DNA from: an uncultured Bacilli bacterium
Lineage (GTDB): Bacteria; Bacillota_I; Bacilli_A; RF39; UBA660
DNA length: 64,000 nucleotides
Direction of reading: 5' to 3'
Assembly (NCBI GenBank): GCA_949425635.1
Contig: CASPWD010000003.1
Location: forward strand, 1 to 64,000
Shown: in pieces, positions 39,575 through 62,217 of the stretch
Position numbering within the stretch: position 1 is the stretch's first letter
Layout: each line of letters starts with the position of its first letter
Program-made: the position numbers and the translations under genes
The notes under the pieces: model-generated
Told to the model about the DNA's origin: nothing
Seen by the model: only the letters and a program-made list of their open reading frames with translations
The model's database searches: none

Positions 39575-39742
39575 AATAAGACAGCAAAAACTAGGTAAAA
39601 AATTTGATGATAATTGGAAAGAAAACTTGGCTAATGCAAAAAAAGTAAAATACTTATGAATAATGGTATTATTGCAAAATATATAAATAGAGTAGAAGAA
39701 CAAGATTACTTAAAAAAGGGATGGAAAAGAGGTAGAAAATGA
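39564..39742 (+). pseudogene. frame-disturbed remnant of a small NUMOD/homing-endonuclease-like protein
   Basis: Two short overlapping frames. The first (39564-39659) follows an ATG-TAA start-stop at 39558-39563 and reads about 31 residues without a proper start. The second (ATG 39656 to TGA 39742) reads 28 residues ending LKKGWKRGRK, the tail pattern seen in HNH-associated proteins. A run of seven A at 39638-39644 forms A AAA AAA in the first frame; a -1 slip there joins the two frames smoothly. It may be decay, or a tiny frameshifted gene. Confidence 0.45.
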
Positions 39743-40818
39743 TGAAACTTAATATTGAATTTGGAAGAACACTACTTATAGATGGTAGTTATGTCTTACA
39801 TAGAATGTTATCACAACCAAACCAATGGGATTTACAAACAACAGCTGGTAAGAGAACTGGAGGCATATTTGGATGTTTAAAAAGTATATTTAAAGAAATG
39901 CAAAGATACAACTATTTCCCAATAGTTGTATTTGATGGTGGATTATCACCCAGAAGATTAAATGTATATTCTAATTATAAAAGAAATGAAGAAAAACAAC
40001 TACTATTAGAATGTAAAGAATGTGAAAAAACAGAACAACAGATATTAGACGAAGCATTTATGAGAGAATATAGAACACAAAGAAAAGATATTATAACAAT
40101 GTTACATGGATTAGGTATTCCTTGTATTAGACTTGAAGGTTGGGAAGGTGATGACTTACTTTATATATTATCTAAAATGTCAAGAGATAGTATTATAATA
40201 TCAGATGATAAAGATTTAATTCAAGCAGTTTATGAAGATGAAAACAGAAAATGTAGAATTTGGAGAACAATGCACGAAGAAATGTGGGATATAAATACAT
40301 TAAAAAGTAAAGAAATGGATGCATGGAAATACATAAACTGCAAAGCAATAATAGGTGACCCATCTGATAATATTCCATCTGCTTGTTATGGTGTAGGTGA
40401 AAAGACTGCTAGTGGGTTATTACAACTTATAGAATCTTGCAATAAATCTAATATTTCTTTTCCACACACAGAGGAAGATTTAGATTGTAAATGTAAAAAC
40501 TTCAATATTCCAAAAAGAAAGGCATATATAAATTTTGATAAAGCACAATTTGTAGTGAATATGGAATTAATGAATTTAAAATTAGTTGATAATGATATCA
40601 CAGATGATTTTGTGAATAAATTATATGATGAAGTTATAATGGAATATAGTACAAATGATTTATATTTAGTAGACCAAAAAATAAAAGAATTCGAAATGTA
40701 TTCTGTAAATATAAATGAAATATTAAAAAGAGTATCAAAGTTACATGATTATTTAAAAATAGAAGATGAATTAAAAGTAAAAAATAGTTCAGAAGAATCA
40801 ATAAATAAATTATTTTAA
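39739..40818 (+). CDS. 5'-3' exonuclease / flap endonuclease
   Basis: 359 residues; two adjacent ATGs (39739, 39742) are both possible starts after AGAGGT. Acidic catalytic positions are visible in LLIDGSY, VVFDGG, LEGWEGDDLLY and IISDDKDL, and the H3TH DNA-binding motif in GDPSDNIPSACYGVGEKTA near residues 204-222. The family removes RNA primers and 5' flaps during replication (T4 RNase H or Pol I N-domain role). The last residues SINKLF carry the LF tail shared by six proteins here, which may bind the sliding clamp. Confidence 0.9.
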   Translation: MMKLNIEFGRTLLIDGSYVLHRMLSQPNQWDLQTTAGKRTGGIFGCLKSIFKEMQRYNYFPIVVFDGGLSPRRLNVYSNYKRNEEKQLLLECKECEKTEQQILDEAFMREYRTQRKDIITMLHGLGIPCIRLEGWEGDDLLYILSKMSRDSIIISDDKDLIQAVYEDENRKCRIWRTMHEEMWDINTLKSKEMDAWKYINCKAIIGDPSDNIPSACYGVGEKTASGLLQLIESCNKSNISFPHTEEDLDCKCKNFNIPKRKAYINFDKAQFVVNMELMNLKLVDNDITDDFVNKLYDEVIMEYSTNDLYLVDQKIKEFEMYSVNINEILKRVSKLHDYLKIEDELKVKNSSEESINKLF

Positions 40819-46988: not shown

Positions 46989-47274
46989 AATTAAAGATAC
47001 TATTGATTTATACAAATTGACTATGCCACCCTTTAATTTTTCATTTGTAATAGATTATGCATGTGTAGATAAGTATAAGGCTAATTTTTATTGTAAAAAG
47101 ATTTATACTGGAAATGATAATGATGATAAGACGTTTTATAAGATATTTGAGTATGATAGAATTATAAGAATACCTAGATTAGATGGTGCATTAGATGATA
47201 CATTATATCATCTAATTAAAAATGATTTAACGGAGGTTATTGAAACAGATGGAAACAATAAAGTTTGGTATTAG
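46975..47274 (+). CDS. hypothetical protein
   Basis: Unrecognised 99-residue protein; the ATG at 46975 is preferred over an in-frame TTG at 46942. Mixed alpha/beta, several aromatic residues, ending in KVWY. It overlaps the neighbours at both ends by 14 and 26 bases. Confidence 0.55.
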   Translation: MKQIKIKDTIDLYKLTMPPFNFSFVIDYACVDKYKANFYCKKIYTGNDNDDKTFYKIFEYDRIIRIPRLDGALDDTLYHLIKNDLTEVIETDGNNKVWY

Positions 47275-47590
47275 TTTTGCAAATTGGTATAAATATATAA
47301 TACCTAAAAGAATGGTAACTCACTATTATATATTTAGATGGTTATGTTTTATTTGGGTAGTAGATAGAGAAAGATACCAGAAAAATCAGGTACAAAAGGG
47401 AATTAGAAGTTCTTTTATATATTGTCCCAAATGTAATGCTGATTTAATTGAAAATAATAGTTTTATAGAAGATACAGATTTTGTTTATTATAAGTGTACT
47501 AATTGTGGTACTAAAAGTAAATGGGATTTTGATGCCCCATGTCCAATATTAATGGATAGTGATATAAAATTAGATGGGAGAGGTAAATAA
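47249..47590 (+). CDS. zinc-ribbon protein with hydrophobic segment
   Basis: 113 residues from the ATG at 47249 (CGGAGG 12 bases upstream; a TTG at 47240 is also possible). A hydrophobic aromatic stretch near residues 24-37 precedes a zinc ribbon, CPKCNADL near 58-65 and CTNCGTKSKW near 84-93. The ribbon recalls small restriction-alleviation-like or ribosomal ribbons. Function unknown. Confidence 0.65.
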   Translation: METIKFGISFANWYKYIIPKRMVTHYYIFRWLCFIWVVDRERYQKNQVQKGIRSSFIYCPKCNADLIENNSFIEDTDFVYYKCTNCGTKSKWDFDAPCPILMDSDIKLDGRGK

Positions 47591-47859
47591 TGAAAATTAA
47601 AGAGAATGTAGACTTACAAAAGCTAAAAAGTTTTGGGTATAAATATGACCCATCTACTGGAGGATATTATAAAGTTTATTTTCCTAAATTTTTAAAACTT
47701 ATACCAATACCATATCATAATATGGTTAGAGGATTAGCAATATATGATGATAGAAAAATTATAATTAAAAAGAAATATGGTTTTGCATGGATACCAGCAC
47801 TTAATGATTTATTTGCAATTAGAGATTTAATTCATGCAGGATTAGTTGAGGAGGTATAG
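47590..47859 (+). CDS. conserved small phage protein
   Basis: 89 residues starting on the last base of the previous stop. Basic first half with aromatics, and a conserved-looking end LFAIRDLIHAGLVEEV that I have seen in small hypothetical phage proteins. No functional motif. Confidence 0.65.
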   Translation: MKIKENVDLQKLKSFGYKYDPSTGGYYKVYFPKFLKLIPIPYHNMVRGLAIYDDRKIIIKKKYGFAWIPALNDLFAIRDLIHAGLVEEV

Positions 47860-47861
47860 TA

Positions 47862-48248
47862 ATGAGTTTAAGAATAAATATTTGCCAAGCAAAGGGATAT
47901 GAGGGAGAAACAGTTGGTGACATTGAGAAGAGAAGATATCCTATATTAAAAGAATTAGAATTTATATCAGGTGGTGAAAAGAATGTAATTAAGTATTTAT
48001 CAGAGAGCCAGATAGAAGAAATTATAATGATGGGTAATATTTTATTGAGTTATAATGCAAATAATAGTGATGATTATGTTAAATTTAGTGTGAATGTGGA
48101 TACTTATGATGATAATGGTGTTACTTGTTACCACTTGCTTATAACAACATCAGACTACGATGAAGAAGGAATGACATTTGGTGGTGTTGAATTTTTTTAT
48201 GATATATCAAAAGATTTATATAATAAGTTTAAAAGCAGGGGGTTGTAG
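47862..48248 (+). CDS. hypothetical protein
   Basis: Unrecognised 128-residue acidic protein with GAGGAGG before the ATG. Helical first half, then beta strands (FSVNVDTYDDNGVTCYHLLI). It precedes the SbcD-like gene by two bases and may be translated with it. Confidence 0.65.
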   Translation: MSLRINICQAKGYEGETVGDIEKRRYPILKELEFISGGEKNVIKYLSESQIEEIIMMGNILLSYNANNSDDYVKFSVNVDTYDDNGVTCYHLLITTSDYDEEGMTFGGVEFFYDISKDLYNKFKSRGL

Positions 48249-48250
48249 CA

Positions 48251-49420
48251 ATGAGATTATTTATATATTCAGATGTACATATAAGTAGAACAAGTAGTAT
48301 ATTACCTATTACAAGTAGTTATAGAAAATATACATATAGACAAGATATGATAGTAAAAACTGCACAATGGATGACAGATATTATTCAACAAAATAATGTT
48401 GATATGATTATAAATTTAGGAGATACATTCGACCAAAATACAATAACAAGCTATGATATAGATACTGCAAGTGAATTTTTTAAAGTATTTCAATATCTAA
48501 ATAAACAACATATAATATTATGTGGAAATCATGAGATGCTTAATACAGATTATAATGTATTAAAATTATTAGACAATATACAAGGAATACAAGTTATTGA
48601 TACACCAACAGTTATTGACAATTTATTATTCTTACCATATTGTGACTATAAAGATTTAGACTTATCAAATTATAATGGTAGTGATTATGCTTTTATGCAC
48701 CACGATATATATGGTAGTAAAATTTCTGCAAATAGAATACTTGATTTTGGAATAGAGAAAGACAGTTTATCTAAATTTAAGAAAGTATTTAATGGGCATG
48801 TTCATGCTTGTAGTAAATTTGCAAATATAGTAAATGTAGGAAGTATAACAACTCATTCTTTTGCAGATAGCACTGATTCAGTTCCTACTTGTTATATATT
48901 TGATACAATTACACAAGAATTGAAAGAGTTTGAAAATAAAATATGCCCTTTATTTAGAAAAATAAAAATAGATACTATTGAAGAAGCTAATGATTATATT
49001 AAAGAAGCAGAGAATAGCACCTATAATTTTATATTACAGGTTGAATGTGATTTTGAGATGAAAAATGATATAGAAGCATTATTACAAAATTGTAATAAAA
49101 TACTTAATTATAAAATAGTTACAAAATCAATTAAGCAAGAAGAACAAAATCAAAATAGTAATATTACATTGGAAAGTAATTTAGATATAAAACAATCTTT
49201 TAAAGATTTTTTAAATTCAGGTGTTGAGTTAAGATATCCTATGAATTTATATAATGTAGTTATTGGAGAAGTTAAAGGGCAAGAAGAAGTTAATGTAAAT
49301 GATATAACTAATTATGATACTGGAGAAGTTATAAATACTTGGGAAGCTAAATATGGAATTGAAAATAAAAGTCAAGAAAATATGGATAAGATTTCAAATA
49401 AATCAAGTAATTTATTTTAG
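48251..49420 (+). CDS. SbcD/Mre11/gp47-like nuclease
   Basis: 389 residues. Metallophosphoesterase motifs run in order: SDVHI (7-11), NLGDTFDQ (about 56-63), CGNHE (about 95-99), MHHDI (about 153-157) and FNGHVHA (about 178-184). With the SbcC-like ATPase at 55547 it should form the Mre11-Rad50 type complex that trims DNA ends for recombination-dependent replication. The two subunits are separated by four genes. The C-terminus SSNLF carries the shared LF tail. Confidence 0.93.
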   Translation: MRLFIYSDVHISRTSSILPITSSYRKYTYRQDMIVKTAQWMTDIIQQNNVDMIINLGDTFDQNTITSYDIDTASEFFKVFQYLNKQHIILCGNHEMLNTDYNVLKLLDNIQGIQVIDTPTVIDNLLFLPYCDYKDLDLSNYNGSDYAFMHHDIYGSKISANRILDFGIEKDSLSKFKKVFNGHVHACSKFANIVNVGSITTHSFADSTDSVPTCYIFDTITQELKEFENKICPLFRKIKIDTIEEANDYIKEAENSTYNFILQVECDFEMKNDIEALLQNCNKILNYKIVTKSIKQEEQNQNSNITLESNLDIKQSFKDFLNSGVELRYPMNLYNVVIGEVKGQEEVNVNDITNYDTGEVINTWEAKYGIENKSQENMDKISNKSSNLF

Positions 49421-49431
49421 GGGTGTTTTGA

Positions 49432-50307
49432 ATGGGTAAACATATAAAAAAGTCTAATAAAGGTGTATATGGATTTAAGTTGTTAGATTATTTAGAATAT
49501 ATTGTATATTCTAATCTTAATACTAAAATATATAAGGTCGAGGAGGTTGGACTAAAGGGAGAGTTATTCGCAGATATACCAAAATTCAATGGAGAATATA
49601 TGATTAGTAATAAAGGAAACATATTTAGAAAGATTTACAATAAGTCTTTTAGTAAATGGGAATATACAAAGGTATCTGTATTTATGGATAAATTTATATC
49701 TGAAAAGGAACAGGGTAATGGAACTGTAAACAATTATTTATATGCAAATATTATTAGTGATGGTAAATCTTATAAATTATGGGTAGGAAGAACAGTTGCA
49801 GAATTATTTGTTCCTAAACCAAAATACATTTTATTTAAAGATGGACTATTTGAATCTAAAATACCAATAGACCAAAGTAAGCTTAGAGTGTGCTATAAAA
49901 ATAATACTGGAACAGATGTAAGTAGCGATAATATAAGATGGGTGTTTAGAAATGATGTGAGCTATAAAGGTGTTACTATTGGAAATAATACCTTACCTAA
50001 ATATAATAATAACGGAGAGCGTTATGTTGTTTATAGAGTTAGCGATGGATTTGTTAAAAAGATATTTTCTAATATTAGAGATACTGGTGCATTCCTAGGA
50101 TACCCAAATGCAAATGGTGACGTTACTATAAGATTGTGTAAAGGAAGAAGAAAAACAATTACAGATATAGAAGGTGACGTTGTATCCTGTAGAAAACTAA
50201 GTCAACTTAAAAATGATACTACAAGAGAATGTGTCAATTTGTATGAAAGTGCATTAAAGGTGCTGAATATGGAAAAAGAAAAAGAGATTTCTAATAAATT
50301 ATTTTAA
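49432..50307 (+). CDS. NUMOD4/HNH-like protein, nuclease site degenerate
   Basis: 291 residues. Near 53-66, IPKFNGEYMISNKGNIFR fits the NUMOD4 module of homing endonucleases. WVGRTVAELFVPKP and the later SSDNIRW correspond to the LvA-x-F-P-N-P and NLeW parts of an HNH domain, but the VNH histidine and paired asparagines between them are missing (YILFKDGLF, VCYKNNTG). It ends ISNKLF, the shared tail. It may be a former homing endonuclease kept as a DNA-binding replication factor. AGGGGTG precedes the ATG. Confidence 0.65.
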   Translation: MGKHIKKSNKGVYGFKLLDYLEYIVYSNLNTKIYKVEEVGLKGELFADIPKFNGEYMISNKGNIFRKIYNKSFSKWEYTKVSVFMDKFISEKEQGNGTVNNYLYANIISDGKSYKLWVGRTVAELFVPKPKYILFKDGLFESKIPIDQSKLRVCYKNNTGTDVSSDNIRWVFRNDVSYKGVTIGNNTLPKYNNNGERYVVYRVSDGFVKKIFSNIRDTGAFLGYPNANGDVTIRLCKGRRKTITDIEGDVVSCRKLSQLKNDTTRECVNLYESALKVLNMEKEKEISNKLF

Positions 50308-50320
50308 GGAGTGTATAAGT

Positions 50321-50554
50321 ATGTTTGATATGAGATGTAAAGAAGATGTAATGAGGGATATATCTATATTAAATGATATATGTTTAGAATATCAAAATTA
50401 TAAAGGAATTATAGCAGCTTGTTTAAAACAATGTAATATTAAAGAGATAAAGGTTTGTAAATGTTCTAAAAATAAAAAGTTAGACAATATTCAAGAAAGA
50501 TTAAATTGTAAAGAGTGTCAAGGGACAGGATATAAAATCATATTTAATAAGTAG
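50321..50554 (+). CDS. small zinc-finger protein
   Basis: 77 residues with AAGGAGTG before the ATG. The C-terminal half has CKCSK and CKECQGTGYK, a DnaJ-like CxxCxGxGY zinc site. The N-terminal half is helical. It lies between two LF-tail genes. Confidence 0.7.
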   Translation: MFDMRCKEDVMRDISILNDICLEYQNYKGIIAACLKQCNIKEIKVCKCSKNKKLDNIQERLNCKECQGTGYKIIFNK

Positions 50555-50559
50555 ATTAA

Positions 50560-50573
50560 AGATGTTATAAATA
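50560..50573 (+). promoter_or_regulatory. putative middle promoter motif, copy d
   Basis: AGATGTTATAAATA, 34 bases before the ATG at 50594; identical to copy a. Confidence 0.35.
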
Positions 50574-50593
50574 GCAGAGAGGTGTAAGAGAAA

Positions 50594-53500
50594 ATGAATT
50601 TAATACAAAATATTTTTCAAAACCCTGAATTTAAAATTGAGGGAGACCAACATAAATTAAAAAAGAGAATATTAAAAGATATAATCAATATGAATTGGTT
50701 TAACAGTTGCGATTTATTAGTTGGATATAAAGATGGTCAGAGAGAATACACAAATCCACAAAGATGGCAACTAGATGCAGCAAATAGTTTATTTGAGTTT
50801 TACTGGAACTATACAGTAGATAGATATACTAATTATCAAGATTTAGAGAATGAAATTTATAATCACATGAAAAATTCTAAATATATAGGAGTACAAACAA
50901 CAGTATTACCTAAATTTACAATTCCATTTAGAGCAGATAAGGGACAATGTATGGTAGATGAAAATGGAAATCAAACATTTAGAGATGGTACACCTACAAG
51001 ACCTTTTTACTCATTGATATATATTGCACAGAATGGATTTATTGATTTTGATAATAAAGTAAGATTGAAAGACTGGAATGAAGTTGTAAAATCAAATCCT
51101 AAATACTTGAAATATTTTGAAACTTGTATAGACCATTTTGATGATGGAGAGAATGGTGTTAAAAAAGAAATAAGAGATTTGGCTAAATCATATAAGGATT
51201 TTAGAGAATACCTAGACCCAAATCTACCAATTTTAGAAGATAGAAAATGGTTATATGATTTTTGTGTTAATGTAGAAGTAAAATGTGACCCATATAAAAA
51301 TTATGAAACAGAGTTATTAAGAAAAAATGGTTTTATAGTTATGGGTGGAAATGAATTTATATATTATAATGATATTGCATGTGTAAATTGTGGTAAACCT
51401 CATTTTAGAAACGGCTTATGTAAAGACTGTTGTGAAATGAATTTTAAAGATAGAATGATAGGAAATAAATTATATGGGAATATAAGTCAAAAAAGTAATT
51501 CAATTCAACAAGATGCAGTTAAATTAGCAGGGGCAGCTTCAAGTGCAAGTTCAGGAAGTTTTAGAGTTAGTGATGGTACATCAAGACAAGGACATTCTGT
51601 AAGCGATGAGAGTATAGATAATGTGTCTTGGAACTCTGTTGCAAGTAGAGCTAGTAGAGCAGCAGGATTAAATGTTGGTACTGCACCTTCTGGAAATAGT
51701 GGTGTGATAGGTGATGATGAGTTATCAAGTGCTGGAAATACAGCAGTAAAAAGTAATGCCAGTAAGTCTGTTGGGTATAATGTAGGAGAAGTAACAGTAA
51801 GTAACAATACAACAGGAATATCAACAGCAGTTGCAGAAGAAAGAATGTCAGATGCAAGTCATACAGCAGTTGCAAGTAAAGTAAGTAGAATGCCAGGTCA
51901 AAATGTAAGTGTAAATATAACTGGTAAATCTCATACAGTACTTGATGATACAATATCTATTGTAAGTGGTGCTTCTGCAGCAAGTATAGCTAGTAGAGCT
52001 TCAGGAATGCAATTAGAAAATCAAAGTGTGCAAGTAGGTACACAAACAACATCAAATAGTGAAACAATGAGAGCAGATATTTTAACAGAAGCAGGACATA
52101 ATGCTTCTAAATCTGCAAGTAATTCAAATACAGTTCAAGTTGGCACATCAACATCTGCACATAGCACATCAATATCAGATGATAGTGTAGGTTCTGTTGC
52201 AAATGTTAGTGTTTCAAGTGGTAGTTCACAATCAAGAGGCTTAAATATAGGTATGCAAAAATCAAGTGCAAATTCAAGTGTAATTGATGATGAAACATTG
52301 CAATTTGCAAGTCATGATAGTAGAATTGCAGCATTTACACATTCATCAGGGGCATCAAATGTAACATCAGAAGAGAGTGTTCAAAGAGCTGGTTTAGAAT
52401 CAAGAACTGCTGGATTCCAAACCGCTGTTAGAGCTGTAAATGTAGGTAATAATGAGTTTGCAAACTCAAAAACAAGAGTGGGAAATTCAACTTCAGGAAA
52501 TTCACATACAACAGGAGATAATACAGTATCTCAAATAGGTATGGAGGCTAGAACCAGTGCATTTCAAACAAAATTAAGTTCTGAAAATGTAATAAATGTT
52601 GGAACAACTACATCAAGAGTTTCTAATGTAAATGTAGAAGAAACTACAGCAGAAGCAGGTATGACAAGTAGAAGTAGTATGACAACATCTGTTTCTGCAA
52701 ATAGTGTAAATGTAGGTACAACTACATCTGAACAATCATTTGCAAGAAATAAAGATACAGTTGATGAGGCAGGAAAAGCAAGTAGAAGTAGCATAACAAC
52801 CTCACCATCTGCATTAAATAGTAATGATGTTAAATTTATTGGAAATATAAAAGATTTTGTTTATACATCTGAAAATACTGTTAGATACTATTCATCTCAA
52901 GGTAAAATATTTGATATGACAATTCCAGATGGTTATAAATATCCAGATAATATATCTACAAATAGATTTTTTATGTTTGGAAGTTTTAATGGGAATTTAG
53001 AATTATTAAAACAATTTTGCCCTTCAAATGCTTTTGTATTTGACCCATTTGCAGGACACGGAGACAGAGCATTATTCTTTATGGAATATGGCTGTAAAAC
53101 ATATATAGGAAATGATACAAATGAACGTGAATGGAATTTCCTAAATAATAATCTAATTGAATTAATAAATAAATATAAGAGATTTAACCAAAGATGTGAG
53201 GTTAGAATCAAAAATTCAATGATTTATGAACCAGAATTAGAGAATAAGGTTGATTTTGTTTACACATCTCCTCCATATTTTGATTTTGAAATGTATGATG
53301 GGTTTACAGAGCAAATCGCTGGTATGAAAACTTATGATGATTTCCATAGAGAATTTTCAATACCTATCTTTAAAAATGTATATAGATATATGAAAGATGG
53401 TGGTGTTGTAATATTACAAACAGAGAAAGATAAAAAACTAAAACAAAAATGGATAGATATGATGGTAAGTGTTGGATTTAAAAATATTACAGAGAATGAT

Positions 53501-53614
53501 TTAAGTAATGAACAGAAACATGGTATTAATAAAACTATTCAAGAAATAGGAATTTTTGTTAAAGGTGACTATGGAAGAGCAGAAGCAAAACAATCAAGCA
53601 ACACATTATTTTAG
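50594..53614 (+). CDS. zinc-knuckle / Ser-rich repeat / DNA methyltransferase-like protein, paralogue 1
   Basis: 1,006 residues. Residues 1-255 are a conserved N-terminal domain shared with the next gene. A zinc knuckle CVNCGKPHFRNGLCKDCC lies near 257-275. About 310-740 is a Ser/Thr/Asn-rich region of roughly ten degenerate units, mostly 35-42 residues, many starting NVGTTTS-like. The C-terminal 220 residues hold methyltransferase motifs: SAM-binding VFDPFAGHGDRALFF and catalytic TSPPYFDF. Motif I precedes motif IV, as in gamma or alpha class enzymes. It ends SSNTLF. It probably modifies DNA or RNA bases; substrate unknown. Confidence 0.8.
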   Translation: MNLIQNIFQNPEFKIEGDQHKLKKRILKDIINMNWFNSCDLLVGYKDGQREYTNPQRWQLDAANSLFEFYWNYTVDRYTNYQDLENEIYNHMKNSKYIGVQTTVLPKFTIPFRADKGQCMVDENGNQTFRDGTPTRPFYSLIYIAQNGFIDFDNKVRLKDWNEVVKSNPKYLKYFETCIDHFDDGENGVKKEIRDLAKSYKDFREYLDPNLPILEDRKWLYDFCVNVEVKCDPYKNYETELLRKNGFIVMGGNEFIYYNDIACVNCGKPHFRNGLCKDCCEMNFKDRMIGNKLYGNISQKSNSIQQDAVKLAGAASSASSGSFRVSDGTSRQGHSVSDESIDNVSWNSVASRASRAAGLNVGTAPSGNSGVIGDDELSSAGNTAVKSNASKSVGYNVGEVTVSNNTTGISTAVAEERMSDASHTAVASKVSRMPGQNVSVNITGKSHTVLDDTISIVSGASAASIASRASGMQLENQSVQVGTQTTSNSETMRADILTEAGHNASKSASNSNTVQVGTSTSAHSTSISDDSVGSVANVSVSSGSSQSRGLNIGMQKSSANSSVIDDETLQFASHDSRIAAFTHSSGASNVTSEESVQRAGLESRTAGFQTAVRAVNVGNNEFANSKTRVGNSTSGNSHTTGDNTVSQIGMEARTSAFQTKLSSENVINVGTTTSRVSNVNVEETTAEAGMTSRSSMTTSVSANSVNVGTTTSEQSFARNKDTVDEAGKASRSSITTSPSALNSNDVKFIGNIKDFVYTSENTVRYYSSQGKIFDMTIPDGYKYPDNISTNRFFMFGSFNGNLELLKQFCPSNAFVFDPFAGHGDRALFFMEYGCKTYIGNDTNEREWNFLNNNLIELINKYKRFNQRCEVRIKNSMIYEPELENKVDFVYTSPPYFDFEMYDGFTEQIAGMKTYDDFHREFSIPIFKNVYRYMKDGGVVILQTEKDKKLKQKWIDMMVSVGFKNITENDLSNEQKHGINKTIQEIGIFVKGDYGRAEAKQSSNTLF
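51520..52815 (+). repeat. degenerate Ser/Thr-rich coding repeats
   Basis: About ten imperfect units of mostly 105-126 bases within the methyltransferase-like gene, each coding a form of N-V-G-T-x-T-S, an acidic turn, then A-G-x-x-S-R-x-S. The next gene keeps only two short related units, each ending with an RGIR-type motif, so the array has expanded or contracted. Confidence 0.65.
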
Positions 53615-53628
53615 AAAGAGGTTTAATA

Positions 53629-55527
53629 ATGAATTTAGTACAGAATATTTTTCAGAATCCTGAATTTAAAATTACAGGGGATAAAAATAAGCTAAAACAG
53701 AAAATTGCTAAAGATATTATTAATATGTATTGGTGGAATGATTGTCATATCCTAATTGGGTATGACAGTTCATTTCGAGTATATTCTAACCCAGAATTAT
53801 GGCAAATAGATATTGCAAATGACCTTTACGAATATTATTGGAATAAACAACAAGATAGTATTACAATAGATAAGTTGGAAGATAGTATTTATAAATATTT
53901 TAAAGGTAAGCAACAAGATTTTGATACAAATAATGGATATTTATCTGCATTTAATATGAAATACAGAATGGACACACAACAGTTTATGCATGACGAAAAT
54001 GGAAATCAAACATTTAGAGATGGTACACATAATAGAGCATTTTATTCATTAATATATTTAGGACAAAATGGATTTATTGATAGAGATGGATTTATGAAAA
54101 TCAAAGATTTTGATACAGTAATAAAAGGAACTAAATTTGAAAAGTTTTTTGAATTATCAAAACATAAAATTAAAAGTGAAAAAAGTATGGTATCTGAGGA
54201 GATAAATGCACTAAAAAATACATATAGACAGTTTGATGAATACCTAGACCCAAATTTACCAATTTTAGAAGACAGAAAATGGTTATATGAAATATATTTA
54301 GATTTAAAATTAAAATGTGACCCATTTAAAAATTATGAATTAGAATTATTAAATAAGAATGGTTCGATAGTTGGTTCTGGGAATGAAGATATTTATATAG
54401 ACATAGATGGTAATAAATGCGATTGTTGTGGTGTTAATAATAGGTATATAAATGGTTTGTGTAAAAATTGCCAAGATGTTAAAATATCTAAAAATGGTAG
54501 GGTTTCAAGGGTATCTGGAACAAGTATTGCAACTAGAAGTATTGATGCAGGTGTTCAAGATGCATCTGTTATGGTAAATACTACAAGTCATACATATCAA
54601 CCAAGAGGAATAAGAGCAGATAGGATATCAAGTACAAGTACATCATGTATATCTGATAATGATATGACAACTGCTGCTGCATTTTCAACAAAGGCTTCAG
54701 CAACATATCGTCCTAGAGGAATAAGAGTAGATGATGAAGATTGTATTGGTGGTATTAAATATTTTAAATATAATGAAGATGGAACAGTACATTATGATTT
54801 TCCAAGTGGTAAGATACAAATGGATATGTCTGTACCAAAAGGATATACATACCCTAAACAAATTGCAATAGATAGATTTGCCATATATGGAAGTTTTAAA
54901 GGTAATCCTGAATTATTAAAAGAATTTTGCCCTAAAAGTGCATTTGTATTTGACCCTTTTGCTGGGCATGGAGATAGGGTTTTAATGTTTGCTAAATATG
55001 GTGTTAAAACATATATAGGAAATGATACAAATTCAAAAGAATGGAATTATCTTAACAGTACTTTTATGCCTATATTAAATAAATATAAAAAATTTGGACA
55101 ACATTTTGAAGTTAGAATAAAAGATTCTAAAATTTATGAACCAGAATTAGAGAATAAGGTTGATTTTGTTTACACATCTCCACCTTACTTTGACTTTGAA
55201 ATGTATGATGGTTTTGAAGAACAGATACAAGGTATGAAAGATTATGATGATTTCCATAAGTATTTTTCAACACCTATATTCACAAATGTTTATAAGTACA
55301 TGAAAGACGGAGGAATAGTAATTTTACAAACTGAAAGAATTGATAAATATAAAGAAAAATGGATAAAAATGATGGAAAATGTTGGTTTTAAGTGTTTATC
55401 TAGTAATGTACTAAATATGAAAAATGCAATGGCAAAAAGAGTAAATATGCTACAAGAAGTTGCTATTTTTGTTAAAGGTGACTATAAGATAGATGAAGTC
55501 AAAACACAACAGAATAAATTATTTTAG
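53629..55527 (+). CDS. zinc-knuckle / DNA methyltransferase-like protein, paralogue 2
   Basis: 632 residues, a tandem paralogue of the previous gene. The N-termini (MNLVQNIFQNPEFKITGD) and the methyltransferase motifs (VFDPFAGHGDRVLMF, TSPPYFDFEMYDGF) are nearly the same. The zinc knuckle reads CDCCGVNNRYINGLCKNC. The middle region is only about 90 residues and contains two units ending YQPRGIRAD and YRPRGIRVD instead of the long repeat. It ends QQNKLF. Both copies keep catalytic residues, so both may be active. Confidence 0.82.
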   Translation: MNLVQNIFQNPEFKITGDKNKLKQKIAKDIINMYWWNDCHILIGYDSSFRVYSNPELWQIDIANDLYEYYWNKQQDSITIDKLEDSIYKYFKGKQQDFDTNNGYLSAFNMKYRMDTQQFMHDENGNQTFRDGTHNRAFYSLIYLGQNGFIDRDGFMKIKDFDTVIKGTKFEKFFELSKHKIKSEKSMVSEEINALKNTYRQFDEYLDPNLPILEDRKWLYEIYLDLKLKCDPFKNYELELLNKNGSIVGSGNEDIYIDIDGNKCDCCGVNNRYINGLCKNCQDVKISKNGRVSRVSGTSIATRSIDAGVQDASVMVNTTSHTYQPRGIRADRISSTSTSCISDNDMTTAAAFSTKASATYRPRGIRVDDEDCIGGIKYFKYNEDGTVHYDFPSGKIQMDMSVPKGYTYPKQIAIDRFAIYGSFKGNPELLKEFCPKSAFVFDPFAGHGDRVLMFAKYGVKTYIGNDTNSKEWNYLNSTFMPILNKYKKFGQHFEVRIKDSKIYEPELENKVDFVYTSPPYFDFEMYDGFEEQIQGMKDYDDFHKYFSTPIFTNVYKYMKDGGIVILQTERIDKYKEKWIKMMENVGFKCLSSNVLNMKNAMAKRVNMLQEVAIFVKGDYKIDEVKTQQNKLF

Positions 55528-55546
55528 TAATGAGGTAGGTTTTCAA

Positions 55547-57544
55547 ATGAATATTGTATTTAAAAAAATTCATATAAAGAATTTTCAATCAGTAGAGAAT
55601 ATAGAACTTGAACTTGACAGTAAAGGAATAGTTGTAGTTAAAGGAATAAATAACTATGAGGCTAATGTTAAAAGCAATGGTAGTGGAAAATCAAGTATTT
55701 TTGAATCTATTATATTTTCTTTATATGGAGAAACAAGTTTAGGGATAAAAGACCCAGAGAATAGGATATTAAATCAAGGATATAGAGTTAGTTTAGATTT
55801 AAGTATAAATGGAATTAATTACACAATTATTAGATATAAAGAAAATGGAAAATCTAATATACAATTATTAGAAAATGGTATAGATGTATCTGGGAGAAAT
55901 AAAACAGATACAGATAAGTTAATACAAAAATATTTAGGAATAAATAAAGACTTATTCCTTGATAGTATATTTTTAGCACAGGGGGTAAGTACAAATTTAA
56001 GTTCTTTATCACCAACTGCTAGAAAAGAAAGATTAGAAATATTAACAGGAACTGAAAAACTAATTGAAGATTTTAAACTATATATAAAGAACAAACAAAT
56101 AGAGTATGAAGCTGAGTGTACTAGATTGACTTTAGACAAAACAAAATTAGAAGGTAATATACAATCATTACAAAGTCAAATAAATACCTTAAATTCTAAA
56201 ATAAATGATATTAAGATAGAGAATGAAAAAAAGAAGTCTTTGGGAAATGTAGAAGAAATAGATATTGAAATAAATCAAATACATAAAGATATTAATATAT
56301 TGAATAATGATATTGTAGATATTGAAAATATAGTTATACCTGAATTTGATTCTGTAATTAGTAATAAACAATTAGATATGAATAATCTTAAATCTAATAG
56401 AGTAGAAATAGAGAATAAGAGAGAAGAAATAAACAATATACTAAATACACAAAGAGATTTAGTTAATAAATTAAGTTCTGAGGTAGATAAGTGGGAATTT
56501 GAAATATCTAATTTTGAAAGTTCTATTAATAGATTAAATAGTGAGATAGATAGTATTAGGAAGTCAGACACATGCCCTACTTGTGGTAGAAAATATGATA
56601 ATGCTAATGAGGAACATATTTTAAATTTAATAAAAGAGAAAGAAACAGAAATATTAGATATACAAAATAAGATACAAGATAATAAAAATTTAATAAATAA
56701 TAAGAGTATTGAAATAAATACAGAAACAGAAAAAGGAAAACAGATAAGAGAACAATATGATTTAGAGCAAAATAGGATACAGAATATAGATAATCAAATA
56801 CAAGATATTGAAAAATATATACAAGATAATCAAAATAAGATAAGAGAACAGAGAGAGCTTATATCATCTAAGCAAAATCAAATAAGAGAATTACAAAATA
56901 AAAAGGATATGCTACAAGGTAAAAAAGAGGAATTATTAAAAGTTGAAATTCAAAGTACAGCAGAATATGAAGAAATGATAGATGAAGCAAATAGTAATAT
57001 AAATAGTAGCAACATTCAAATAAGGGAAATTGAATCAAAATGGAATGAGCAAAATGATTTAGTAGATGTATGTAAATATTCGCAACAACTAATAACAAAA
57101 CCATTTAGAACTTATTTATTACAAAATAGTATAAAAATATTAAATGATAAGTTAGAATATTTAAGTAATAGATTATTTAGTAACCATAAAGATGTTATAA
57201 TTATTGATGGTGACGATTCTAAGTTAGATATAAGATTAGGTGATGCTTCTTATGAGAGTTTAAGTGGTGGTGAGAAAACAAGAGTAAATATTTGTTTGTT
57301 ATTAGCACAGAAATATTTAGCATCAAATCTTGGAAATGTTGACTGTAATTTAATAGTTTTGGATGAGGTTTTAGGACAATGTGATAGTGACGCTGAAATG
57401 AATATTATAGATTTGATAATAGAAGAATTACAAAGTGTTTCTAGTATAATATTTATTGGACATAAAGAACTTACAATACCTAATGATGGAACAATTACAG
57501 TTATAAAAGATGAGAATGGACTATCAAGATTATTAAATAAATAG
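55547..57544 (+). CDS. SbcC/Rad50/gp46-like ATPase
   Basis: 665 residues from the ATG at 55547 (GAGGTAGG upstream). Walker A NGSGKSS near residues 43-50, a long coiled coil interrupted by a zinc hook CPTCGRKY near residue 343, signature LSGGEKTR near 573 and Walker B LIVLDEVL near 603. The short coiled coil is like T4 gp46. It partners the SbcD-like nuclease. Two methyltransferase-like genes lie between the pair, an unusual arrangement. Confidence 0.93.
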   Translation: MNIVFKKIHIKNFQSVENIELELDSKGIVVVKGINNYEANVKSNGSGKSSIFESIIFSLYGETSLGIKDPENRILNQGYRVSLDLSINGINYTIIRYKENGKSNIQLLENGIDVSGRNKTDTDKLIQKYLGINKDLFLDSIFLAQGVSTNLSSLSPTARKERLEILTGTEKLIEDFKLYIKNKQIEYEAECTRLTLDKTKLEGNIQSLQSQINTLNSKINDIKIENEKKKSLGNVEEIDIEINQIHKDINILNNDIVDIENIVIPEFDSVISNKQLDMNNLKSNRVEIENKREEINNILNTQRDLVNKLSSEVDKWEFEISNFESSINRLNSEIDSIRKSDTCPTCGRKYDNANEEHILNLIKEKETEILDIQNKIQDNKNLINNKSIEINTETEKGKQIREQYDLEQNRIQNIDNQIQDIEKYIQDNQNKIREQRELISSKQNQIRELQNKKDMLQGKKEELLKVEIQSTAEYEEMIDEANSNINSSNIQIREIESKWNEQNDLVDVCKYSQQLITKPFRTYLLQNSIKILNDKLEYLSNRLFSNHKDVIIIDGDDSKLDIRLGDASYESLSGGEKTRVNICLLLAQKYLASNLGNVDCNLIVLDEVLGQCDSDAEMNIIDLIIEELQSVSSIIFIGHKELTIPNDGTITVIKDENGLSRLLNK

Positions 57545-57555
57545 GAGGTTTTTCA

Positions 57556-58026
57556 ATGATTAAATTTGAATATGTAAATAGGCTAAAAGAAATCGGTGTA
57601 GACCCAAGTGCAGATGGTTCTGAAATGAGATTACCATATAGAAGCACAAAGAAGTCAGCAGGGTATGACTTTATAAATCCAGAAACAGTTACAATTCAAC
57701 CGAAGGAAATTAAGTATGTAAAGACAGGAATTAAAGCATTATTTCCAGATGATTTTGTATTAAAATTATACAACAGAAGCTCAAATCCAAAGAAATTAGG
57801 ATTAGTATTAGCAAATGGTGTTGGAATTGTAGATGCAGACTATTATAATAACCCTGATAATGAAGGAGAAATTGCATTTGCATTTGTGAATATTAAAGAT
57901 GAGCCAGTTACATTAGAATATGGTTGTAAATTAGGACAAGGAATATTTGAAAAATATTATATTGTTAATGAAGAAGATACTATTACAGCAGAAAGAACTT
58001 CTGGGTTTGGTTCAACAGGAGAATAA
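57556..58026 (+). CDS. dut: dUTPase
   Basis: 156 residues, trimeric dUTPase family. Motifs in order: SAGYDF (about 35-40), YNRSSNPKK (about 74-82), GVGIVDADYYNNPDNEGEI (about 93-111), and C-terminal RTSGFGSTG. It hydrolyses dUTP to dUMP, keeping uracil out of DNA and feeding ThyX. AGGAGG precedes the ATG. Confidence 0.93.
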   Translation: MIKFEYVNRLKEIGVDPSADGSEMRLPYRSTKKSAGYDFINPETVTIQPKEIKYVKTGIKALFPDDFVLKLYNRSSNPKKLGLVLANGVGIVDADYYNNPDNEGEIAFAFVNIKDEPVTLEYGCKLGQGIFEKYYIVNEEDTITAERTSGFGSTGE

Positions 58027-61794: not shown

Positions 61795-62217
61795 ATGATG
61801 AAACAAAGTGATTTTGAAAAGAAATTAAATAAGGTACTTACAGAGGAAGAACATTATGTTCTTAATATCTTATTGCTATCATATCTAACCAATGATGAAA
61901 GTTATAAAGATATAGCAGAATTATGCTTTATGTTTGATGAATATTCTAATTTTAAAAAATTTATAAAATATTATGGTGGTAGAACTTTAAAGATACCAAC
62001 ACAAGAAGAGTTAAGACTTGCATTGAAACATTTACTATTATTCCAATATGTAAAAATAGATGGTGCAGATTTTGAAGATAGCTATAAAAGAGTTAAACTA
62101 AAAGAACTAAATATTAGTAAGGAAGATGCAAGTAATACTATTGAAAGATTTTACAATTACTTAAAGGAGAATGGAAATCAAGTATTTAGAGGTAGAAAAA
62201 GAAATAGATTATTTTAG
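61795..62217 (+). CDS. putative DNA-binding regulator with LF tail
   Basis: 140 residues; ATG at 61795 or 61798 after GGAGTGAG. Helical, with the stretch FIKYYGGRTLKIPTQEELRLALKHLLLFQ near 56-84, a pattern seen in small Gram-positive phage proteins and in HTH activators. The basic end RGRKRNRLF carries the shared LF tail. Likely DNA-bound; exact role unknown. Confidence 0.65.
   Translation: MMKQSDFEKKLNKVLTEEEHYVLNILLLSYLTNDESYKDIAELCFMFDEYSNFKKFIKYYGGRTLKIPTQEELRLALKHLLLFQYVKIDGADFEDSYKRVKLKELNISKEDASNTIERFYNYLKENGNQVFRGRKRNRLF

Follow-up and report, generated by a model that had tools for sequence, protein, structure and literature searches.

Two genes for methyltransferase-like proteins lie one behind the other in the window analysed here (the whole 64-kb stretch of DNA, 64,000 nucleotides, itself part of a 220-kb myophage-like contig), and their features are collected in Table 1 with those of four other genes. 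The first-pass annotation of this DNA had described them as tandem methyltransferase-like paralogues, a description that is borne out, since both open reading frames are present and score above the curated cut-off of PF01555 (34.3 and 30.9 bits against 26.7). Each protein consists of an N-terminal domain of approximately 260 residues (hereafter N-domain), a four-cysteine knuckle, a linker and a methyltransferase core that ends in a short C-terminal tail. The two genes are flanked by sbcD and sbcC genes.

Table 1. Features of the two methyltransferase paralogues and of other genes in the window (positions in the window; residues numbered within each protein).
Feature	Position	Strand	Details
5'-3' (flap-type) exonuclease	39739..40818	+	tail INKLF
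SbcD-like nuclease	48251..49420	+	tail SSNLF
HNH/NUMOD4 endonuclease	49432..50307	+	tail SNKLF
Methyltransferase paralogue 1	50594..53614	+	1006 aa
N-domain, paralogue 1	50594..51370	+	aa 1-259; 51% identity to paralogue 2, 30% to L052
Four-cysteine knuckle, paralogue 1	51380..51430	+	C263 C266 C276 C279
Ser/Thr/Ala/Asn-rich linker, paralogue 1	51482..52825	+	aa 297-744
Array of 11 units of ~38 aa, paralogue 1	51551..52822	+	aa 320-743
Motif I (SAM binding), paralogue 1	53042..53068	+	DPFAGHGDR
Motif IV (catalytic), paralogue 1	53264..53281	+	TSPPYF
Tail, paralogue 1	53588..53611	+	KQSSNTLF
Methyltransferase paralogue 2	53629..55527	+	632 aa
N-domain, paralogue 2	53629..54402	+	aa 1-258; AlphaFold model pLDDT 80.7
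Four-cysteine knuckle, paralogue 2	54418..54471	+	C264 C267 C278 C281
Short linker, paralogue 2	54478..54738	+	aa 284-370
Methyltransferase core with tail, paralogue 2	54862..55524	+
Motif I, paralogue 2	54952..54978	+	DPFAGHGDR
Motif IV, paralogue 2	55174..55191	+	TSPPYF
Tail, paralogue 2	55504..55524	+	TQQNKLF, fits QxxLF (consensus PMC12309361)
Protein with no assigned function	61795..62217	+	140 aa; tail RNRLF

The gene set of the 220-kb contig is of the contractile-tail and large-phage type, and includes genes for tail sheath, SbcC/SbcD, DnaB, primase, family-A polymerase, RecA, clamp-loader subunits, dUTPase, GroEL, SHMT, ThyX and NAD-ligase. A third methyltransferase, of the short Twortvirinae type, is encoded in the same contig at 211036-212055, and a SAM synthetase at 82710-83912; the SAM-lyase domain found at contig positions 175065-178823 is puzzling beside the phage's own SAM synthetase. 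An Rfam search of positions 47000-58000 gave no match. The genome bin measures 2.4 Mb with 5.6% contamination (genomes of the same genus measure 1.0-1.8 Mb), so that the phage contig may merely have been binned with a bacterial genome, binning being no proof of host. Over 13.9 kb the window has identical counterparts in two IMG/VR contigs, and in a third the array of paralogue 1 is the same up to the contig end, three contigs that perhaps come from related samples and do not by themselves prove full genome independence. Assembly collapse or expansion, which had been named as a possible origin of the repeat in paralogue 1, is therefore unlikely: the IMG/VR contigs carry the identical sequence and synonymous codons are randomised among the units.

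The motifs that had been read as a methyltransferase core, DPFAGHGDR and TSPPYF, are intact in both paralogues. In the form DPFxGxG and TSPPYF they are invariant in nine members of the family described below, all nine of which match PF01555 and contain the FxGxG and [S/D]PPY signatures by which it is recognised, and a profile of these nine members leads, in the PDB, to DNA amino-methyltransferases. Six classes of amino-methyltransferases have been listed (PMC3036652). In the alignment with the beta-class enzyme 2zie, the SPPY stretch falls at residues 39-99 and DPFaGtG at residues 238-265, an order opposite to that of the paralogues, which implies that their cores are circularly permuted relative to the beta class; in place of the beta-class order (motif IV, target-recognition domain or TRD, motif I), the paralogues have motif I and then motif IV. 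The zeta class is defined by the order TRD, motif I, motif IV. All nine of the aligned members have the order N-domain, motif I, motif IV. The core lacks the length for a target-recognition domain and is preceded by the N-domain in every member; the paralogues would thus match the zeta class in order, on the presumption that the N-domain is the TRD. The predicted target would be the amino group of cytosine or adenine (N4-cytosine or N6-adenine), TSPPY being a motif that cannot decide between them.

The N-domain shared by the two proteins, which the first-pass annotation had also recognised, is 51% identical between the paralogues, while the cores are 63% identical. Both copies are under purifying selection, with pN values of 0.30 for the N-domain and 0.20 for the core and pS values that are saturated (0.55 and 0.52, respectively). 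A profile search with the N-terminal region and a structure prediction, two of the checks that had been suggested at the outset, returned neither a known family nor a fold match. The N-domain has no family match in Pfam, PHROGs, NCBIfam or the PDB by sequence or fold, its relatives are absent from 50,697 phage records and from the searched genomes of the class, and a scan of the genome contigs gave no relative. Weak similarities were dismissed as chance, whether they fell in the genomes of the class (395 genomes; E about 0.001-0.05), in PDB chains (E >= 0.049) or in the Pfam families PAZ_2/NUC153. An AlphaFold model made from the two paralogues only was unusable (pLDDT 34), and a good one was obtained when the eight relatives described below were added and the N-domain was folded alone (ten sequences; pLDDT 80.7, pTM 0.74). 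With this model, searches of the PDB and BFVD gave no match at E <= 0.001, and a re-examination gave none that reached Z >= 2. To judge from its sequence, the N-domain is an undescribed family; on the model, a new fold is possible, a missing match being no proof of it. The knuckle that follows the N-domain has the pattern CxxC-x9/10-CxxC in both paralogues, which agrees with the four cysteines originally noted; its reading as a zinc knuckle is less firm, given that the best of the Pfam zinc ribbons (Zn_ribbon_3, E 0.018) stays below the cut-off. The knuckle is confined to paralogues 1 and 2 and is absent from the eight relatives.

The first-pass annotation had stated that the architecture matches no known family. 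That part stands, as no described family with this architecture was found and literature searches returned no such methyltransferase; the architecture is not unique, since eight other uncultured phage contigs share the layout. The earliest scans of viral contigs gave solely copies of the same phage. The core profile reached a 548-residue protein (contig L052) in which the N-domain (30% identity, E 1e-25) is joined to the core by a Ser/Ala repeat linker. A search based on L052 added a remnant and seven further phage contigs in which all three parts are present, so that eight contigs in total have the N-domain and the core with a repeat linker at the corresponding place between them. One relative (L138) has an intein-like insert inside motif I. 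Of the remnant (L148) only both gene ends are left, in different frames; most of the gene has been lost there, so that it is dispensable in some phages. As far as the searches go, this three-part methyltransferase family and its architecture are undescribed, the kind of enzyme itself being known.

The linker had been regarded as unusual for an intracellular DNA-modifying enzyme; that it is a one-off oddity is not supported by the relatives. All eight intact relatives have a linker of strict x-Ala-Ser triplets, 79-142 residues long, with serine in one phase (p <= 0.0005), and in two of them (L052 and L131) this stretch of the gene is repetitive as DNA, a tandem array with a 9-bp period. The linkers of paralogues 1 and 2 show no triplet phase. 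The linker slot is thus conserved and the repeat sequence is not, which argues for a tether. The lengths first estimated (about 430 and about 90 residues, with about ten units) were close to those found, which are 448 residues in paralogue 1 and 87 in paralogue 2, with 11 units (10 full and 1 partial) in the former. The description of the linker as expandable holds across the family, where its length ranges from 79 to 448 residues and 9-bp arrays occur; it does not hold within the phage, whose copies show no difference. No evidence was found for display, clustering or phase separation, the roles first proposed for it.

The units of paralogue 1 have a consensus of about NVGTxTSxxSxxxxDDxVxxAGxxSRxS, in which V, G, S, D/E and A are the strongly conserved residues. 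Their HMM domain scores are 31-52 bits, and the leave-one-out z value per unit is 5.3-7.1 against residues drawn from the linker composition, a slightly optimistic figure in that the left-out unit was present when the alignment was made. Tandem Repeats Finder detects no DNA tandem array at this linker. At identical residues, the units share the same codon 253 times (255.3 expected from codon usage), and non-synonymous differences between units are below those of shuffled pairings (pN 0.55 vs 0.71). Codon matches at chance together with reduced pN imply that the array is old and maintained at the protein level. A recent expansion of the 38-residue units is unlikely, since they match as protein and their synonymous codons are randomised. 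These data bear on the proposal that the linker is a by-product, that is, that slippage-prone repeats are tolerated in a hinge whose function is merely to join two domains. The 9-bp arrays, the span of linker lengths and the apparent low complexity of several neighbouring open reading frames in the L052 and L131 phages agree with it, but all eight intact relatives retain a repeat linker with strict triplet phase and the units of paralogue 1 hold their consensus in spite of randomised codons, so that such an origin appears unlikely.

Beyond the last core strand, both paralogues extend into short tails that end in SNTLF and QNKLF. Seven of the 283 open reading frames of the contig end in NxLF (0.09 expected, p 6e-12), and no other C-terminal pattern of the phage is as enriched; the binned chromosome has such an end in 1 of 271 open reading frames over 250 kb. 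The bearers are the 5'-3' exonuclease, the HNH endonuclease, the three methyltransferases, the NAD-ligase and the 140-aa protein, and the end of SbcD (SSNLF) is similar; given that the three methyltransferases are related, the bearers amount to about six independent families. This tail common to replication enzymes, the third methyltransferase and the permuted order of the core motifs are new with respect to the first-pass annotation. The bacterial clamp-binding consensus is QL[S/D]LF, with a looser form QxxLF and, in some polymerases, xxxLF (PMC12309361, PMC2705854). PolC has its clamp motif at the C-terminus (PMC12309361), and the PolC of the same genome bin ends in QLSLF. In T4, interchangeable C-terminal clamp peptides are present on three proteins (PMC2988020), and ligase and flap nuclease are known clamp clients elsewhere (PMC2705854, PMC9690074). 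The resemblance suggests that the NxLF-like tails may act as sliding-clamp-binding peptides. A methyltransferase cluster of a different phage contig (G437, locus L067) has endings such as NSQALFESRLF and SQRNTLFDL, which are suggestive only, with a modest genome-wide enrichment (LF-ending p 1e-4). The apparent LFxF endings of some other methyltransferases (L061 and L107) were rejected as tails, as they align with the last core strand.

A different docking partner has also been considered, such as a phage single-stranded-DNA-binding protein or another hub of the replisome. The QxxLF consensus is matched by QNKLF of paralogue 2, but SNTLF of paralogue 1 and most of the other tails have no Gln at the first position, and searches of the contig found no phage sliding clamp (a 366-aa protein at contig positions 66921-68021 was not supported as one). 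Against this stand the clamp-loader subunits that the phage encodes and the identity of the bearers, since ligase, flap-type exonuclease, SbcD and methyltransferases are a typical set of clamp clients; docking away from the clamp is unlikely. The NxLF tail is absent from the eight relatives of the same architecture, which implies that docking would be an addition of this lineage and not the core mechanism of the family.

The reading that is preferred here, with a probability of roughly 45%, is that the paralogues are replication-coupled, clamp-docked phage DNA amino-methyltransferases, built from a new N-domain, a tether of variable length and a minimal core with motif I before motif IV. The N-domain would most likely recognise the DNA target or a partner, the tether, which is repetitive and non-globular, would give reach, and the NxLF tail would dock the enzymes on the sliding clamp, where the core would methylate the new phage DNA during copying. 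The modification would probably protect the phage DNA against restriction, and the SAM synthetase of the phage would fit the need for a methyl donor.

The protein-level conservation of the 38-residue unit speaks against a pure spacer, which would not need it, and the units could instead form a multivalent docking array, each of them binding a partner (protein or DNA) in an enzyme that works as a scaffold gathering many copies; if the unit does bind something, paralogue 1 would be a scaffold. The strong conservation of V, G, S, D/E and A in the face of codon saturation points in this direction, as does the copy number, 11 in paralogue 1 against no more than a single degenerate copy in paralogue 2. 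On the other side, the unit occurs in no other protein of the 220-kb contig, it has no known partner, and the relatives fill the linker slot with a triplet repeat unrelated to it, which leaves the proposal quite unlikely. Less probable still is a wider version in which the paralogues are a new kind of DNA modifier: a new N-domain fold is joined to a clamp-riding methyltransferase, the conserved array serves as a multivalent scaffold on freshly replicated phage DNA, where it would bring together replication enzymes or copies of the enzyme, and a docking code used throughout the phage (NxLF-COOH) brings modification and repair enzymes to the replication fork. That the paralogues act on RNA or protein is highly improbable: some family members score weakly to such families (Cons_hypoth95) and the order motif I, motif IV occurs also among RNA and protein methyltransferases, but the best matches throughout are DNA N4/N6 methyltransferases, the genes lie between those of SbcD and SbcC, and those of the Twort-type relatives are neighbours of genes for a helicase and SbcD.

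Taken together, these observations describe an unnamed family of phage methyltransferases with an orphan domain, possibly of a new fold, in which a repeat linker is a conserved part. From the shared C-terminal tail it is predicted that a single common peptide serves a large phage to bring its enzymes for modification, repair and Okazaki processing to the replisome which, if true, would explain how the protection of phage DNA keeps pace with its copying. Such tails could also aid the assignment of functions to phage genes, for example that of the 140-aa protein at 61795.

Among known systems, the Twortvirinae methyltransferases (for example Staphylococcus phage Alsa_4 WNM51395.1; PHROG 12517) have the same permuted core, with approximately 38% identity over 172 residues and the same motifs, and their gene sits between those of the DnaB helicase and SbcD. 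The cores of the paralogues match PHROG 12517 with E values of 5e-12 and 9.5e-11, and all nine family members match it. The Twortvirinae proteins, of approximately 330 residues, have a different N-terminus of 130 residues and lack the repeat linker, knuckle and NxLF tail; this layout of short N-terminus and no linker differs from that of the paralogues, which have the 260-residue N-domain and the linker. The beta-class enzymes of PF01555 (2zie, DpnA, MboIIA, CcrM and the N4-cytosine enzyme 8s9n) align with both catalytic motifs and the adjacent residues, but their motif order is reversed and they have neither the N-domain nor the linker. Gene 11 of Haloarcula virus HCTV-2 encodes an N-terminal accessory domain followed by a core in the same order; however, this domain is annotated as ParB-like and has no detectable relation to the N-domain of the paralogues, and the repeat linker is missing. 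The comparison with DNMT1, a C5 enzyme, is one of analogy only, no homology to the N-domain or linker having been found. The likeness lies in the working mode, in that DNMT1 is a methyltransferase that docks on a clamp through a peptide (DNMT1-PCNA, PMC9690074).

Two relatives of the methyltransferase paralogues, on other uncultured phage contigs, stand out. In one of them (L138), an apparent intein, read by eye, splits methyltransferase motif I (FDPFC / GHGT). The other (L148) is a remnant that keeps the first 42 and the last ~60 residues of a family member in different frames, the middle having been deleted; a ParB-like ORF lies immediately upstream of it. Several other ORFs, putative genes made of short Ala-Arg, Trp-Ser-Arg or Pro-Leu repeats, occur in the genomes of relatives (L131, L148 and L138), and simple repeats look abundant throughout these phages.

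Features discussed in this part (coordinates on the phage contig G000:C3 unless stated)
Feature	Position	Local coordinates	Remark
HNH/NUMOD4 endonuclease	window 49432-50307		NxLF tail
77-aa protein	window 50321-50554		directly upstream of paralogue 1
Paralogue 1 linker DNA	window 51490-52825
SAM synthetase	82710-83912	L008:2710-3912	full three-domain
GIY-YIG-type ORF	126526-127419		by eye; immediately upstream of ligase
NAD-dependent ligase	127755-129386	L010:7755-9386
1252-aa protein	175065-178823	L012:15065-18823	SAM-lyase domain + DUF5662
Third methyltransferase	211036-212055	L004:1000-2019	Twort type; C-terminus SNKLF
Methyltransferase relative		L138:3715-6345	apparent intein, by eye
Family-member remnant		L148:5992-6141 + next 150 bases
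Short-repeat ORFs		L131:4053-4544; L148:4144-4401; L138:7160-7693	putative genes
Five clustered methyltransferase-like ORFs		L067:3467-9591	G437, another phage

At 36% G+C, the linker DNA of paralogue 1 lies above the contig value of 27%, which is what its Ala, Gly, Ser and Thr codons would predict. The small upstream protein carries the cysteine pattern CxC..CxxCxGTG, and family searches with it gave no match. The neighboring HNH/NUMOD4 endonuclease is probably of the homing type, and it bears the C-terminal NxLF peptide despite this. The ligase matches its profile only from position 129 onward and is preceded by the ORF that resembles a GIY-YIG type by eye; perhaps a homing element has split this gene.

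A SAM synthetase and a SAM-lyase domain are both encoded by this one contig, with opposing effects on SAM within a single phage.

The third methyltransferase shares 59% identity with one in G438. The G437 cluster includes two tandem paralogues of the Twort type and several ORFs with terminal [RK][LF][FW] or Q-x-L-F tails.
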